64,000 nucleotides of DNA from Armatimonadota bacterium (GTDB taxonomy: Bacteria > Armatimonadota > Fimbriimonadia > Fimbriimonadales > ATM1), in the NCBI GenBank assembly GCA_003577165.1, contig QEUM01000007.1, positions 62,001-126,000 of the forward strand, read 5' to 3'. Each line of letters opens with the position of its first letter. Position 1 is the stretch's first letter. Under the pieces are notes generated by a model. That model saw nothing but the letters and a program-made list of their open reading frames with translations, was not told the DNA's origin and did no database searches. This document shows positions 53,677 through 59,028 of the stretch, in pieces. The translations under genes and the position numbers were made by a program.

Positions 53677-54339
53677 TTACAACTGTTTCACCGCGGCGTG
53701 GGCTTCGCCCACCTTCAGGCTGATCGCCAGACCGTCGTGGATCGGGTCGAGGAAGGTCATCAGTTCGGGGTGGTCCACGGCGTCGCGGTTGTACTGGCGG
53801 ATGGCCACGGTGGAAGGCTCCAGGTCCGAGGTGTCGGCCACTCGACCGCTCCAGATCGCGTTGTGCGTGAAGATGAGGCCACCATAGCGCAACTTTTCAG
53901 TTGCGATGCGAAGCGCGAGGGGGTACTGGGTCTTGTTCACGTCGATCAGGATGCAGTCGAAGGGCTCCTGCTCCTGAGCGAGCAGTTCCAGGGCGTCGCC
54001 GTTCAGGAAACGGCAGCGATCCAGGAATCCCGCGCGATCCAGGTACCCGCGAGCGGCCTCGGTGTTGGCCGCGTCGCCGTCCGTGTGGACGACTTCTCCG
54101 GTCGGACCGACGGCGGCGGCGAACCAGACGGTCGAGTACCCGACGCCGCTGCCCATCTCGAACACCCGCCTCGCCTCGATCGCCACCGACAGAGTGGCTA
54201 CGGTTCGGCCGCACTCGGGGCCGAAGATGGGGAAGTCGTTCTCCTTCGCCCACTGCTCCATCTCTCGAAGGATGGGGCTGCGGCTGGCGTGGTGGGCCAC
54301 AAGGTAGCGGTCCAACTCCGGACTTAGATGATTTGCCAT
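53677..54339 (-). CDS. Class I SAM-dependent O-methyltransferase
   Basis: The 220-residue protein matches the catechol-O-methyltransferase-like family (Methyltransf_3). It has FGPECGRTVATLSVAIEARR near 38, VFEMGSGVGYSTVWFAAAVG (AdoMet motif I) near 58, GEVVHTDGDAANTEAARGYL near 80, and FDCILIDVNKTQYP near 127 with the metal-binding Asp. Substrate unknown. It overlaps the OsmC gene end by 16 nt, so the two are cotranscribed. Confidence 0.85.
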   Translation of the reverse strand: MANHLSPELDRYLVAHHASRSPILREMEQWAKENDFPIFGPECGRTVATLSVAIEARRVFEMGSGVGYSTVWFAAAVGPTGEVVHTDGDAANTEAARGYLDRAGFLDRCRFLNGDALELLAQEQEPFDCILIDVNKTQYPLALRIATEKLRYGGLIFTHNAIWSGRVADTSDLEPSTVAIRQYNRDAVDHPELMTFLDPIHDGLAISLKVGEAHAAVKQL

Positions 54340-54743
54340 TCGTTTGCGATTGTGGGCCCGAAGCGCAGCGTGGCGGTTGCGGAGCAGTACTTCTGGTCGC
54401 TCAATTCGATGGCGCGGGCGAGCGCCGCCTCTTCGATGTTTTCGCCCTCGACGACGTGGCGGATGCGGATCGCCTTGATCGGTCGCGGCCAGTCGCCCGG
54501 AGGATCGCGGTCCCAGTCCACTTCGACCCGATATGCGGTCACCTTCTGGCGCTTCTTCTCAAGGATGCTGAGGACGTCGAGCGCGGTGCAGGCGGCGATG
54601 GCGCACACCATGGTTTCGAGGGGCATGGGGCCGGCGCCCGTCCCGCCGAAGTCAGGGTCAGTGTCGAAAACGATCTTGAATCCGGAGGGCGGTGTGGCTT
54701 CGAAGGCCTTGCCGTTGCCCGTCCACTCCAATGTGGCTTGCAT
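54324..54743 (-). CDS. OsmC/Ohr-family peroxidase-like protein
   Basis: The 139-residue protein has MQATLEWTGNGKAFEATPPS at the N terminus, GAGPMPLETMVCAIAACTAL near 56 with the resolving or peroxidatic Cys pair region, and a long helix at DVLSILEKKRQ. The last part has ELSDQKYCSATATLR with the second conserved Cys. OsmC proteins reduce organic hydroperoxides. A TAGAAT box overlaps the stop of the upstream short ORF and ends 7 nt before this ATG. Confidence 0.85.
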   Translation of the reverse strand: MQATLEWTGNGKAFEATPPSGFKIVFDTDPDFGGTGAGPMPLETMVCAIAACTALDVLSILEKKRQKVTAYRVEVDWDRDPPGDWPRPIKAIRIRHVVEGENIEEAALARAIELSDQKYCSATATLRFGPTIANEWQII

Positions 54744-54750
54744 GGGCGCG

Positions 54751-54756
54751 ATTCTA
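54751..54756 (-). promoter_or_regulatory. -10 box TAGAAT for a leaderless start (OsmC)
   Basis: TAGAAT ends 7 nt before ATG 54743; no ribosome binding site is present. Confidence 0.5.
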
Positions 54757-54936
54757 CTTACGGCCAGGATCGGAAGAGATGATCGCCGTCATGCCGCCTA
54801 AGACCGCTCCCACCAGAACCGGCAACGCCGGTATGCGGCAGGAGGCTCACGTGGAGCCTGCCGCCTTCATGAGCAGGTGGTAGCCGAAGCCGGCGGTTGC
54901 GCCTAATACGGCGCCGATGAGAAAGCGAACGATCAT
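54754..54936 (-). CDS. Small membrane protein ORF with one in-frame TGA (possible selenoprotein or pseudogene)
   Basis: From ATG 54936, 29 codons read MIVRFLIGAVLGATAGFGYH then LLMKAAGST. A TGA follows at 54849-54847, then the frame continues ASCRIPALPVLVGAVLGGMT to a TAG at 54756-54754. Both halves are hydrophobic and together look like a two-helix DUF6132-type protein, whose central loop has Cys residues. Reading TGA as selenocysteine gives a U-x-x-C motif in that loop. After the TGA a hairpin ACCGGC-GTT-GCCGGT begins 14 nt downstream. AAGGAG touches the ATG, which is poor spacing. A plain nonsense mutation is equally possible. Confidence 0.35.
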
Positions 54937-55003
54937 CTCCTTCTCTAACGCACGAATCGCGCCGCCCGCCGCACGGTTTGCCACGAGCACGCGCCCCGTG
55001 GTG

Positions 55004-55009
55004 TAACCT
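55004..55009 (+). promoter_or_regulatory. -10-like TAACCT for a leaderless start (tricorn homologue)
   Basis: TAACCT ends 7 nt before ATG 55017; no Shine-Dalgarno sequence. Confidence 0.4.
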
Positions 55010-55016
55010 GCCGACG

Positions 55017-58000
55017 ATGATCCGCTCGTTTCTATGCGTCTGCGGCGCGCTCGCGATGATCGCCTCCACGCAGGCGGTCGTGTCTTTTGAAGGCCCGGTG
55101 AAGCGCACTCGCTATCCCTCTCTTTCTCCCGACGGGAAGACCCTTGCGTTCTCTTATCAGGGCGACATCTTTCGCGTGTCGAGTGAGGGAGGTCGCGCGG
55201 AGCGGCTGACCGTGCATCCGGCAGCGGAGACGATGCCGAGGTTCAGTCCGGATGGAAAGCATATTGCGTTCACCAGCACGCGTCACGGCAACATGGACGT
55301 GTTCGTGATGGCTGCGGACGGAAGCGGACTGCGCCGTCTTACTTTTCTCAGCGCCAACGATTACGCGATGGGGTGGACGCCGGACTCCAAGTGGGTGCTG
55401 TTTTACACGCAGGGGTGGGGGAGCCTCGAAATCATGAAGGTGCCCGCATCCGGCGGCGAGCCGATTCGCCTGTCGCAGGACAGCATGGAATTCGAGTTCT
55501 TCCCATCTGTTTCGCCGGACGGCAAGAAGATGCTTTACAACTACGGCGGTGGACCGGGGCAATGGCGGCGAGTCGGGCAGAAGGGAAGCGGCACGGCGGA
55601 CATCTGGATCTCGGACTTCACGTCTCCTTTGTCCAACATGAGGAACTTGACGAAAGATGACATGCCGCAACTCTGGCCGATGTGGTCACCGGACGGGAGA
55701 TCCATTTGGTACGTCGCGGATGACGGCAGTCAAAACCTCTGGCGGATGCAGTCGGACGGAACCGGCGCGCGCCGAATCACGAATCACACGACGGGAAAGG
55801 TCAGTTACGCTTGCATCTCAGCAAACGGGGCGATGATCGCCTATGAGCACGAACATTCGATTTTCACATTCGACACGAGAAGCAGCCGCGAGAAGCGAGT
55901 GGACATCTACGTGCCGGGGGATCAGAGATACAACGACATCACGCGATTGGCGCTGACCGCCGGGGCTTCGTCTTACAGCGTTTCACCGAACGGGAAGCGG
56001 CTCCTCCTCTCCGCGCGCGGAGAGATTCTGATGACTCCGGAGGGGGGCGGCGCGACGAAGGTAATGACCACCTTTCCCGGGCGGGACGAGGAGCCGGTTT
56101 GGAAGTCCGACACGGAGTTCTTTTACGTCACGCTTCAGAACGGCAACAAGGACGTGTACCTCATGAATCTGGAAGGGAAGGCGAGGCCGTTCCTCGATTC
56201 GCCTTCCGACGAGATGGGCATTCTGCTAAGTCCCGATCGAAAGACTCTCGCCTTCCATCGCGGCCTCAACGAAGTGTGCGTCGTGCCTGCAGACGGAGGC
56301 GCGCCGAAGGTCGTCCATAAGGGCGAGTACTACAGCGCGCTGTTCGGTCTGCCCGAGTACTCGTGGGCGTTCGACAGCAAGCACTTGGCGGTCACCGCGC
56401 CCACGTCAAGGGGGGGGACGAACATCTATCTCGTGGACGTCGAAACCGGCAAGTCGCAGTTGGTTGCGATGGCTGCGCGAGGAACGGGAGTTCCGATCGT
56501 GACCAACAACGGAAAGGTCGTCGCCCTTCCTTCGCAAGAGACCGAAACGGTGGGGCTATGGGCGGTCGATCTCGTGCCGCAGCCGCTCAGCTTCCTCGAA
56601 GACGCGCTCGACAAACTGGACGCGAAAGAGGAACCGAAGGGCGAGCCGAAAATCGAAGTCCAAGAGCGGGGGTTGTTCGAGCGTTACCGAAGCCTCGGCG
56701 CGCCGGGCGATGTCGGCGAAGTCGTTTCGGACAAGTCGGGGACGACTCTGTACGCGACGATGGATGGAGACATTTACTCCGTTCCCTCGTCGGGCGGAGC
56801 CCCCACCCAAATCACCTCGCTTCCCGGCACAGAGTCAAACCTCTGGATGAGCCCCGACGGCTCAAAACTGTATTTCCTCAATGCCGGCCGCGTCAATTCT
56901 GTCGCGCTCGCGACCCGGACGGTGTCCACGCGATCCTTCTCCGCGAGCCTCGAGATCAACCAACACTCCGAAGCCAAGGCGCTCTTCGATGAGATTTGGT
57001 GGGTGATGGACAGACTCTTCTACGACAGAGAGCATCACGGAAAGAACTGGCAAGCAATCAAGAGCGCGTATGAAGCCGTGCTGCCGCACGCGTTCGATCG
57101 CGCTGAGTTCTACGACCTCATGCAGGAGATGGTCCACGAACTCAACGCATCGCACCTCGGCGTATCCGGCCCCACTCAGCAGCCAACGACCGGCGACGAT
57201 TCCACGGGATCGCTCGCGGTGGAGCCCGATTGGGCCAGGCTTGAGGCGACCGGCGAGTACGTCGTCACGCGAGTCATGGAGGGGGGGCCGGCCGACCACC
57301 CTCAATCGAAATTGGAACCCGGCGATCGCATCGTCGCGGTCAACGGCGTCGAACTGAGCGCAGCGAATCCGATGGACAGATTGCTGCTCGGAACTGTCGG
57401 GAAGAAGGTGCGCCTGTCGGTCATCGGACGATCCCGCGAGACGCGAGAGGTGTTCATCAAGCCGATCCCGGTGAGCGGGCTAACGGGCCTGTCGTACGAC
57501 GACTTCGTGAGACGGTCGCGTGCGCTCGTGGACAGATACAGCGGTGGCCAGATCGCGTATCTGCACATCCAAGGGATGAGCATGCCGAGCCATGAACTGT
57601 TCATGCGACAGGTGCGCACTCTCACGCAGAACAAGAAGGGCCTCATCATAGACGTGCGATACAACGGAGGCGGGAACACAGCGCATCTCGCCCTCGGAAT
57701 GCTCGTGAAAAGGCTGTGGCTGATTCGCGCGAATCGCGATTCCGACATCCGCATCAGCGAAAACCTCTATCGAGGCGAGTCGGTTGAACTGCCGTCCGCG
57801 CTCATGATCAACGCATCCAGTTTCAGCAACGCGGAGATCTTGGCCGAGGGGTTCAGGAGGCTCGGCGTGGGTCCGGTCGTCGGCGTGGCGACGCCGGGGG
57901 CGGTCATCGGCACGGCGTCCTGGACTCTGTTCGACGGCGGGTCTCTGCGGACGCCCTTCGCCGGTGCGTACACGGTGGATGGGGAGAACCTCGAGGGGAA

Positions 58001-58121
58001 TGGAAGGAAGCCGGACATCCCCGTTCCTTACGACCCGAATGCGGCCGCTGCCGGCGAAGATCCGATGCTCAAGGCCGCCGTCGAGGCCCTGCTCAAGAGG
58101 GCCGGAGCGGGGGCGATTTGA
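55017..58121 (+). CDS. Tricorn protease homologue (PD40 propellers, PDZ, S41 peptidase), exported
   Basis: ATG 55017 gives 1034 residues with a signal peptide (SFLCVCGALAMIASTQAV); an earlier start in the same frame lies before the promoter box. Residues ~25-640 hold WD40/PD40 blades (YPSLSPDGKTLAFSYQGDIF, SPDGKHIAFTSTRHGN, WSPDGRSIWYV) forming two propellers. A C1 helical domain and a PDZ domain (PGDRIVAVNGVELS near 775) follow. The S41 protease has GLIIDVRYNGGGNTAHLALG near 875 and INASSFSNAE near 928, which holds the nucleophile Ser. Tricorn trims oligopeptides; signal-bearing bacterial forms act outside the cytoplasm. Confidence 0.92.
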   Translation: MIRSFLCVCGALAMIASTQAVVSFEGPVKRTRYPSLSPDGKTLAFSYQGDIFRVSSEGGRAERLTVHPAAETMPRFSPDGKHIAFTSTRHGNMDVFVMAADGSGLRRLTFLSANDYAMGWTPDSKWVLFYTQGWGSLEIMKVPASGGEPIRLSQDSMEFEFFPSVSPDGKKMLYNYGGGPGQWRRVGQKGSGTADIWISDFTSPLSNMRNLTKDDMPQLWPMWSPDGRSIWYVADDGSQNLWRMQSDGTGARRITNHTTGKVSYACISANGAMIAYEHEHSIFTFDTRSSREKRVDIYVPGDQRYNDITRLALTAGASSYSVSPNGKRLLLSARGEILMTPEGGGATKVMTTFPGRDEEPVWKSDTEFFYVTLQNGNKDVYLMNLEGKARPFLDSPSDEMGILLSPDRKTLAFHRGLNEVCVVPADGGAPKVVHKGEYYSALFGLPEYSWAFDSKHLAVTAPTSRGGTNIYLVDVETGKSQLVAMAARGTGVPIVTNNGKVVALPSQETETVGLWAVDLVPQPLSFLEDALDKLDAKEEPKGEPKIEVQERGLFERYRSLGAPGDVGEVVSDKSGTTLYATMDGDIYSVPSSGGAPTQITSLPGTESNLWMSPDGSKLYFLNAGRVNSVALATRTVSTRSFSASLEINQHSEAKALFDEIWWVMDRLFYDREHHGKNWQAIKSAYEAVLPHAFDRAEFYDLMQEMVHELNASHLGVSGPTQQPTTGDDSTGSLAVEPDWARLEATGEYVVTRVMEGGPADHPQSKLEPGDRIVAVNGVELSAANPMDRLLLGTVGKKVRLSVIGRSRETREVFIKPIPVSGLTGLSYDDFVRRSRALVDRYSGGQIAYLHIQGMSMPSHELFMRQVRTLTQNKKGLIIDVRYNGGGNTAHLALGMLVKRLWLIRANRDSDIRISENLYRGESVELPSALMINASSFSNAEILAEGFRRLGVGPVVGVATPGAVIGTASWTLFDGGSLRTPFAGAYTVDGENLEGNGRKPDIPVPYDPNAAAAGEDPMLKAAVEALLKRAGAGAI

Positions 58122-58344: not shown

Positions 58345-59028
58345 ATGAAGAAGCTTCTTATTCCGGCCTTCCTTGTCGGCGCCGTGGCATCCGCTAACGC
58401 CGTCGTCCTTTGGAACCAGCCGGCGGCTGACGTCAACCAGAACGGTTACGTCAACCAAGAGTTCGCCGACTTCCCAACGTTCAGCACGTACGAGGTCAAT
58501 GACGTGAACACAGGCCCGGGCTGGATCATGGAGAAGATCACGATCCGACTCCAGACGTCCAGCGCGTCCTGGGGCGCGGTCAACTCGGCTCGCCTGAACA
58601 TCTTCAACAAGACCGGCGCTCTTCCGGGCGCGGGCGATGACCCCACCACCGGGACCGCCGTGGCCGTCACCATGACGAACATGGGCACCAACTCTGGTGG
58701 CTTCACGCTCTATGACATGGTCTGGACCGGCAGCATCAACGTCGGCGCCGGCGACAAGTGGATCGGCCTCACGCCGGTCGCTGCGTTCGGCACCGCTGGT
58801 CAGGCGTTCGGCATCCAGGTCGCTAAGGTTGGCGATGCTTCCGCTTACCGCAATCCGGGCGGCGGATTCGGCCTCGGCACGGCTTGGGGCAACTCCGGCA
58901 TGTTCGGCGAAACGGACCCCCGAGATAACAACATCATCATCGAGGGCCAAGTGGTTCCCGAGCCTGCTACCCTGCTCGCTTTGGGCGCCGGCCTCGCCGC
59001 GCTCGCTGCTCGCCGCCGCAAGGCCTAA
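58345..59028 (+). CDS. PEP-CTERM exported protein
   Basis: The 227-residue product has a signal peptide (MKKLLIPAFLVGAVASANA). Its beta-rich body is rich in Asn, Gly and Thr. The C-terminal sorting tag is VPEPAT, a hydrophobic helix (LLALGAGLAALAA), then RRRKA. The ideal promoter, strong ribosome binding site and UUCG terminator suggest high expression, as for a surface-layer or matrix protein. Function unknown. Confidence 0.85.
   Translation: MKKLLIPAFLVGAVASANAVVLWNQPAADVNQNGYVNQEFADFPTFSTYEVNDVNTGPGWIMEKITIRLQTSSASWGAVNSARLNIFNKTGALPGAGDDPTTGTAVAVTMTNMGTNSGGFTLYDMVWTGSINVGAGDKWIGLTPVAAFGTAGQAFGIQVAKVGDASAYRNPGGGFGLGTAWGNSGMFGETDPRDNNIIIEGQVVPEPATLLALGAGLAALAARRRKA

Follow-up and report, generated by a model that had tools for sequence, protein, structure and literature searches.

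A probable new selenoprotein family of two-helix mini-proteins, apparently related to DUF6132, in Armatimonadota

Introduction

In the bacterial selenoproteins described so far, an in-frame UGA is read via SelB, a SECIS element lies just downstream, homologues carry cysteine (Cys) in place of selenocysteine (Sec), and a UxxC motif is often present. Table 1 of a 2026 review lists 119 bacterial selenoprotein families or subfamilies (PMC13188914). The rules for SECIS elements given in the same review require a stem of 4-16 bp, a loop of 3-9 nt with a G in the first two loop positions, a distance of 16-37 nt from the UGA and a minimum free energy of at most -7.5 kcal/mol (PMC13188914). The deep-Sep study, as far as its text was available, adds nine new selenoprotein families, three of them without any domain and none named with DUF6132 (PMC12013277).

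DUF6132 (PF19628) is a Pfam family of unknown function whose members have two helices and a loop in which a Cys is followed by an N/S-P stretch. Neither DUF6132 nor PF19628 is among the 119 entries of Table 1, and the OsmC-like selenoprotein entered there is the OsmC protein itself and not a mini-ORF of the kind described below (PMC13188914). No paper treating DUF6132 or PF19628 as a selenoprotein was found in a literature search, whose coverage excluded preprints and most subscription papers. A further search combining Fimbriimonad or Armatimonad with selenoprotein or selenocysteine returned, judged by the listing of its results, no selenoprotein study of the phylum.

Here we describe a mini-ORF with an in-frame TGA in a 64,000-nt stretch of DNA from an Armatimonadota bacterium (hereafter the window), together with its homologues in the phylum. 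The gene resembles known selenoprotein genes in its UGA, in its downstream hairpin and in its Cys homologues, and it resembles DUF6132 in the predicted fold of its product, with Sec in the place of the loop Cys.

Results

Gene and predicted protein

The mini-ORF occupies positions 54754..54936 on the minus strand and comprises 60 codons followed by TAG. A first-pass annotation of the window had noticed a 60-codon two-helix ORF split by a TGA, without giving its strand, and this description was borne out. Translated with TGA as Sec, the product reads MIVRFLIGAVLGATAGFGYHLLMKAAGSTUASCRIPALPVLVGAVLGGMTAIISSDPGRK. The in-frame TGA (54847..54849, minus strand) encodes residue 30, and three residues on stands Cys33 (TGC, 54838..54840, minus strand), which may act as the resolving Cys of a UxxC motif. 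In the AlphaFold2 model (mean pLDDT 70, pTM 0.35), residues 2-25 and 37-54 form helices and Sec30 lies in the intervening loop; a fold search of the PDB with this protein gave no match. Judging from their length and composition, both helices probably lie in the membrane.

The stop codon of the mini-ORF is followed after 10 nt, on the same strand, by an OsmC-family gene (54324..54743, minus strand; Pfam OsmC, 66.3 bits), which is a probable operon partner, and next after it comes an O-methyltransferase-like gene (53677-54339). The plus strand of the window also carries, at 54978-58121, a large tricorn-protease-like ORF with PD40 beta-propeller repeats and Tricorn C1, PDZ and S41 peptidase domains, and at 58345-59028 an ORF that ends in VPEPATLLALGAGLAALAARRRKA, which resembles a PEP-CTERM sorting tail.

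Homologues and the TGA column

Three of the seven other genomes in the window's GTDB family contain a homologue (G002, G005 and G006), each with TGA at the corresponding position, and in all four genomes the copy immediately precedes an OsmC gene. At E <= 0.1, a profile built from these four copies matched 64 of the 113 genomes in the order (Fimbriimonadales). Four of the matches (G007, G021, G030 and G110; E 0.017 to 0.07) lacked the family sequence and were dropped, leaving an order alignment of 60 members. The column of the TGA in this alignment holds TGA in 42 members and TGC or TGT in 18, and nothing else. A search of the 60-row profile against the phylum (291 genomes) yielded 75 hits, namely the 60 members, 14 genomes outside the order and G067, a genome of the order (E 4.4e-4) that was dropped for having neither Sec nor Cys at the column. 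A profile of the 14 outside members in turn gave 67 hits, including 39 outside the order (31 TGA and 8 Cys), so that 99 genomes of the phylum were counted in total, 73 with TGA and 26 with Cys. The first-pass annotation had proposed a search for homologues with Cys at the TGA position, and this search thus returned TGA or Cys in all 60 order members and in the 39 counted outside. This homologue column very probably points to a new selenoprotein family.

These homologues also bear on the explanation that the TGA is a plain stop or results from a sequencing error or from decay of the gene into a pseudogene, the second half being either remnant coding sequence or open by chance. GC-rich DNA is rich in short open frames and hairpins, and TGA is indeed an ordinary stop in the window: when non-overlapping ORFs with 250 codons or more were picked mechanically, 16 of 35 ended in it. 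Nevertheless, conserved protein sequence continues past the TGA in 73 genomes, and across the 99 counted members Cys is the sole alternative at the column. The homologues accordingly led us to reject a sequencing error, a pseudogene, a plain stop and a code change alike, and they leave this explanation with next to no probability.

Both the TGA form and the Cys form occur within each of six genera (g12, g18, g20, g22, g25 and g127), indicating repeated switches between them; a SelB-like gene has been retained in the Cys genome of g18 and in that of g25. The position of TGA in the loop with a Cys three residues on, as first annotated, holds for the window copy by translation. This Cys is not a constant of the family: Cys33 is present in the window, but a Cys at +3 occurs in 29 of the 42 order members with TGA. 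Another Cys besides Sec is found somewhere in 40 of these 42, and of the 31 members with TGA beyond the order, 22 have a Cys at +4, 8 have one within the six residues before Sec and 1 has a Cys at neither place.

When the single window sequence was searched against named genome records and viral contigs, no match was obtained, and the four-row alignment searched against the named genome records matched seven. One of these, a SAR202 record (L058), was judged by its translation to be a chance match. Another, JADZEW010000008.1 (L057), is titled Methanoregulaceae archaeon isolate SJ84 and contains the bacterial mini-ORF family with TGA; the record appears to correspond to G064:C8, a genome placed in the same bacterial order, and its title looks wrong.

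SECIS-like hairpin

Downstream of the TGA, the sequence ACCGGC-GTT-GCCGGT (54818..54832, minus strand) can form a hairpin with a 6 bp stem and a 3-nt loop whose first position is G. The loop begins 20 nt after the UGA, and the stem alone has a folding energy of -8.7 kcal/mol. The first-pass description of a SECIS-like hairpin with G first in its apical loop at this distance is therefore correct, and the hairpin agrees with all of the SECIS rules given in the review (PMC13188914). An outer CTCC/GGAG pairing had also been suggested; in the window the 43 nt after the UGA do fold with it, at -23.6 kcal/mol, but this pairing differs among members and is not conserved. Judged by those same rules, the inner stem alone passes in 33 of the 42 order genes with TGA, in none of the 18 with Cys and, as a simple contiguous stem, in 7 of the 31 TGA members outside the order (among loci L119-L188). 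Nine of the 42 have an inner stem that stops at -7.0 kcal/mol, just short of -7.5. Folding energies for the 42 nt that follow the codon range from -11.6 to -23.6 kcal/mol in the order genes with TGA and from -4.8 to -14.8 kcal/mol in the Cys genes. For the TGA members outside the order, the SECIS elements may contain bulges or belong to another type.

The arms of the hairpin overlap the codons of a conserved PAVPV stretch. Because protein conservation alone could keep these arms, we ran a synonymous-codon test, in which codons were drawn from local usage (4000 draws per gene) and Watson-Crick stems were scored at the fixed site. Among the 42 TGA genes, 39 had a stem of at least 5 bp where 2.1 were expected; among the 18 Cys genes none did, the expectation being 0.09. 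For the window copy, 15% of draws gave at least 5 bp and 0.025% (1/4000) gave at least the observed 6 bp. The caution in the first-pass annotation that the hairpin could be chance in GC-rich DNA is thus partly justified: the single window copy is suggestive only, but the family-wide count is strong. Across the family, these data strongly suggest that the hairpin of the TGA forms is kept beyond the demands of coding.

Individual members are consistent with this view. Four Cys genes (G016, G022, G023 and G059) keep the PAVP residues in codons that no longer form the stem. In G002, which has an extra codon, a hairpin is rebuilt at the same distance with other arms (GGGCAC-GGTC-GTGCCC), and in G091, also with an extra codon, AGGGACC-GGC-GGTTCCT forms a hairpin at the same distance that contains a G-U pair and hence lies outside the 39. 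G050 and G073 have re-registered stems. Classical covariation is weak. In the test on 40 of the 42 TGA rows, the two with an extra codon being left out, 91.9% of cells were paired versus a mean of 91.2% in shuffled columns, 27 of 500 shuffles being as high or higher; slid versions of the structure paired at most 59.8%, and a two-sided change was found in one pair. With strict covariation weak, the argument for the hairpin rests on the codon test and on the loss in Cys forms. Rfam gave no SECIS match at the window site, the two hits there being at chance level.

Selenocysteine machinery

The first-pass annotation had also suggested looking for Sec genes in the genome, and tRNA-Sec, SelB and SelD were all found; neither this search nor the one for homologues refuted its interpretation. 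The window assembly (2.75 Mb, 23 contigs) contains a tRNA-Sec of 76 bits with anticodon tca, a SelB of 376 bits and a SelD of 355 bits. The catalytic position of this SelD is itself a TGA (MVDCAG-TGA-ASKL), which is an internal control for recoding. For SelA, neither NCBIfam models in nine ORFs near SelB and tRNA-Sec nor a SelA motif in three stretches gave a hit. Two further tRNA-Sec matches in this genome, of 47 bits each, were assigned to tRNA-Ser by ARAGORN.

Across the order, SelB or tRNA-Sec is present in 42 of 42 TGA genomes. SelB exceeds the cut-off in 40 of them, and in the two where it was not found, G002 and G084 (88% and 95% complete), tRNA-Sec was detected at 81 and 77 bits. Among the 18 Cys genomes of the order, G059 (77% complete) has a SelB over the cut-off and yielded no tRNA-Sec, a full-length SelB-like gene in G044 falls below the cut-off, and in the remainder the SelB matches are partial, EF-Tu-like or absent. 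No tRNA-Sec was found in these 18 or in the two Cys genomes tested outside the order; three matches of 49-50 bits (Rfam cut-off 47) in Cys genomes proved to be tRNA-Ser or tRNA-Leu by ARAGORN. Outside the order the machinery was tested in 14 of the 39 members (12 TGA and 2 Cys). SelB exceeds the cut-off in 11 of the 12 TGA genomes and the twelfth, G228, has a tRNA-Sec of 69 bits, and the two Cys genomes, G191 and G232, have neither a SelB over the cut-off nor a tRNA-Sec. Fisher tests on these machinery counts ignore kinship and serve as a guide only.

The two Cys genomes of the order that keep a SelB-like gene, G059 (L062) and G044 (L084), may be at an intermediate stage in the loss of Sec decoding. 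In the window's own family, G001, G003 and G007 have SelB and gave no match to the mini-ORF family at E <= 0.001.

Some read-through of UGA can occur without a SECIS element. The UGA might accordingly be read as another residue, either by near-cognate read-through, for example as Trp, or under a changed code. Against such a reading, Trp never occurs at the column, where the alternate residue is Cys throughout; TGA serves as a regular stop in the window genome; the hairpin is tied to the TGA forms; and all TGA genomes tested (42 within the order, 12 beyond it) have Sec machinery. We regard it as very improbable.

Relationship to known families

The first-pass annotation had noted a resemblance to DUF6132-type two-helix proteins. 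The window protein itself gave no match to Pfam DUF6132 (PF19628) at E <= 1, but a link was found via other members. When the order members were scanned singly, 6 of 60 matched DUF6132 at E <= 0.5 (best 0.0011), and among the first 14 members outside the order 12 matched at E <= 0.1 (best 2.1e-7). The curated cut-off of the family (23.2 bits) was passed by G254 (TGA, 30 bits), G213 (Cys, 25.2 bits) and G253. Moreover, the order profile and the outside-order profile aligned over 58 columns with 98.5% probability (E 1.9e-15). Comparison of GGG-U-PMTSNP in G253 and G254 with GGG-C-PLTCNP in G191 places Sec exactly where the loop Cys stands. On the evidence of these profiles, the mini-ORF family appears to be a divergent arm of DUF6132.

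Other assignments were weaker. NCBIfam gave no selenoprotein model at E <= 0.5 for the 60 order members, its commonest weak matches being MyrrCad (14) and XapX (9). The XapX matches at E <= 0.5 (9 of 60, best 1.1e-4) are too weak for assignment, and Pfam DUF1427 matched 3 of the 60 order members (best 0.05). To our knowledge, a loop with Cys or Sec is not a feature of the XapX/DUF1427 family. The comparison with described selenoprotein families was made by domain name; Table 1 of the review includes three hypothetical families that have no domain, DG, DW and DF (PMC13188914), and three of the new families in the deep-Sep study likewise have none (PMC12013277).

Genomic context and possible function

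OsmC follows the mini-ORF in eight TGA genomes, namely the four of the window's family and G223, G224, G228 and G229, the gene being placed by sequence only in G223 and lying at a distance of 562 nt in G229. One explanation for this arrangement is that the UGA and the hairpin act mainly as a selenium-responsive switch, in which termination or read-through at the UGA sets the translation of OsmC, with the small protein itself mattering little. The 10 nt gap in the window and the recurrence of OsmC in seven other TGA genomes favour such a switch. However, OsmC is not the neighbour of most members; in 27 of the 60 order members, for instance, the downstream gene carries a motif that we take to be HemW-like, and the one scanned contains Radical_SAM and HemN_C. 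In addition, conservation of the protein extends to the Cys forms, in which no switch is needed. A switch as the main role is therefore unlikely.

Thioredoxin-type motifs were sought within 700 nt upstream or 900 nt downstream of the members. Of the 39 members outside the order, 18 had such a motif nearby, in one case TlpA-like, and as a limited control 0 of 2000 random placements in the window genome sequence had one. In nine matching g92 genomes and in G228 and G229, a thioredoxin gene lies 13 to 31 nt upstream, with Pfam confirmation in the four that were scanned. The Cys form of G192 is followed by a thioredoxin and by a Pyr_redox_2 protein resembling thioredoxin reductase.

In the related genomes G213-G216 (L180, L189, L190 and L191), the Cys form and a thioredoxin share one stop-free frame; a Pfam scan of two of these ORFs found thioredoxin in both and DUF6132 in one. 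These frames may encode a fusion or, since internal Met codons exist, a coupled pair. Such a possible DUF6132-thioredoxin fusion hints at the function of DUF6132.

From these neighbours, a membrane-anchored Sec/Cys redox centre that would exchange electrons with thioredoxin, and would work with OsmC where the two are linked, can be proposed as the function of the family, a proposal to which we give even chances. The product may otherwise be a selenoprotein that acts as a carrier or as a metal- or sulfur-binding membrane hairpin and not as a thioredoxin-linked redox centre. In two of the order's 42 TGA members Sec is unaccompanied by any Cys, and no thioredoxin motif was found near any of the 60 order members. 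The predicted topology presents a further puzzle that fits a carrier or binding role: should both helices span the membrane, the C-terminal thioredoxin of the one-frame forms would be on the opposite side from the loop. On the other side of the balance, the linked redox genes, where seen, are thioredoxin, Pyr_redox_2 (thioredoxin-reductase-like) or OsmC, and 40 of the 42 have another Cys. We consider a carrier or binding hairpin possible, though the less probable of the two.

Discussion

Taken together, the TGA/Cys column, the hairpin of the TGA forms and its loss in Cys forms, and the distribution of the Sec machinery give us high confidence, from comparison of genomes, that the mini-ORF is a real selenoprotein gene and a member of a family spread through Armatimonadota. 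In the proposed mechanism, SelB would deliver Sec-tRNA-Sec to the in-frame UGA, guided by the hairpin 20 nt downstream. The predicted product would be a 60-residue protein with two membrane helices joined by a loop that holds Sec, and a Cys would usually lie close by. Across the family, Cys would have taken the place of Sec mainly in genomes that lack Sec decoding.

A more specific and rather doubtful model extends the proposed redox centre to a minimal membrane selenium relay, in which the Sec-Cys pair of the two-helix hairpin would pass electrons from thioredoxin to OsmC or to membrane hydroperoxides as presumed substrates, possibly across the bilayer. Such a relay would be an old trait of the phylum that was repeatedly converted to Cys on loss of Sec decoding.

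The mini-ORF family would add to the 119 families and subfamilies listed in the published table (PMC13188914). Genes of 60 codons that are interrupted by a UGA are easily overlooked, and members of the family are probably unannotated or shortened in many genomes. The TGA-to-Cys switches within genera, mostly with the Sec machinery absent, offer a natural experiment on Sec loss, and on the maintenance and later erosion of a SECIS element that lies entirely within coding sequence. Finally, DUF6132 would gain a role that can be tested.
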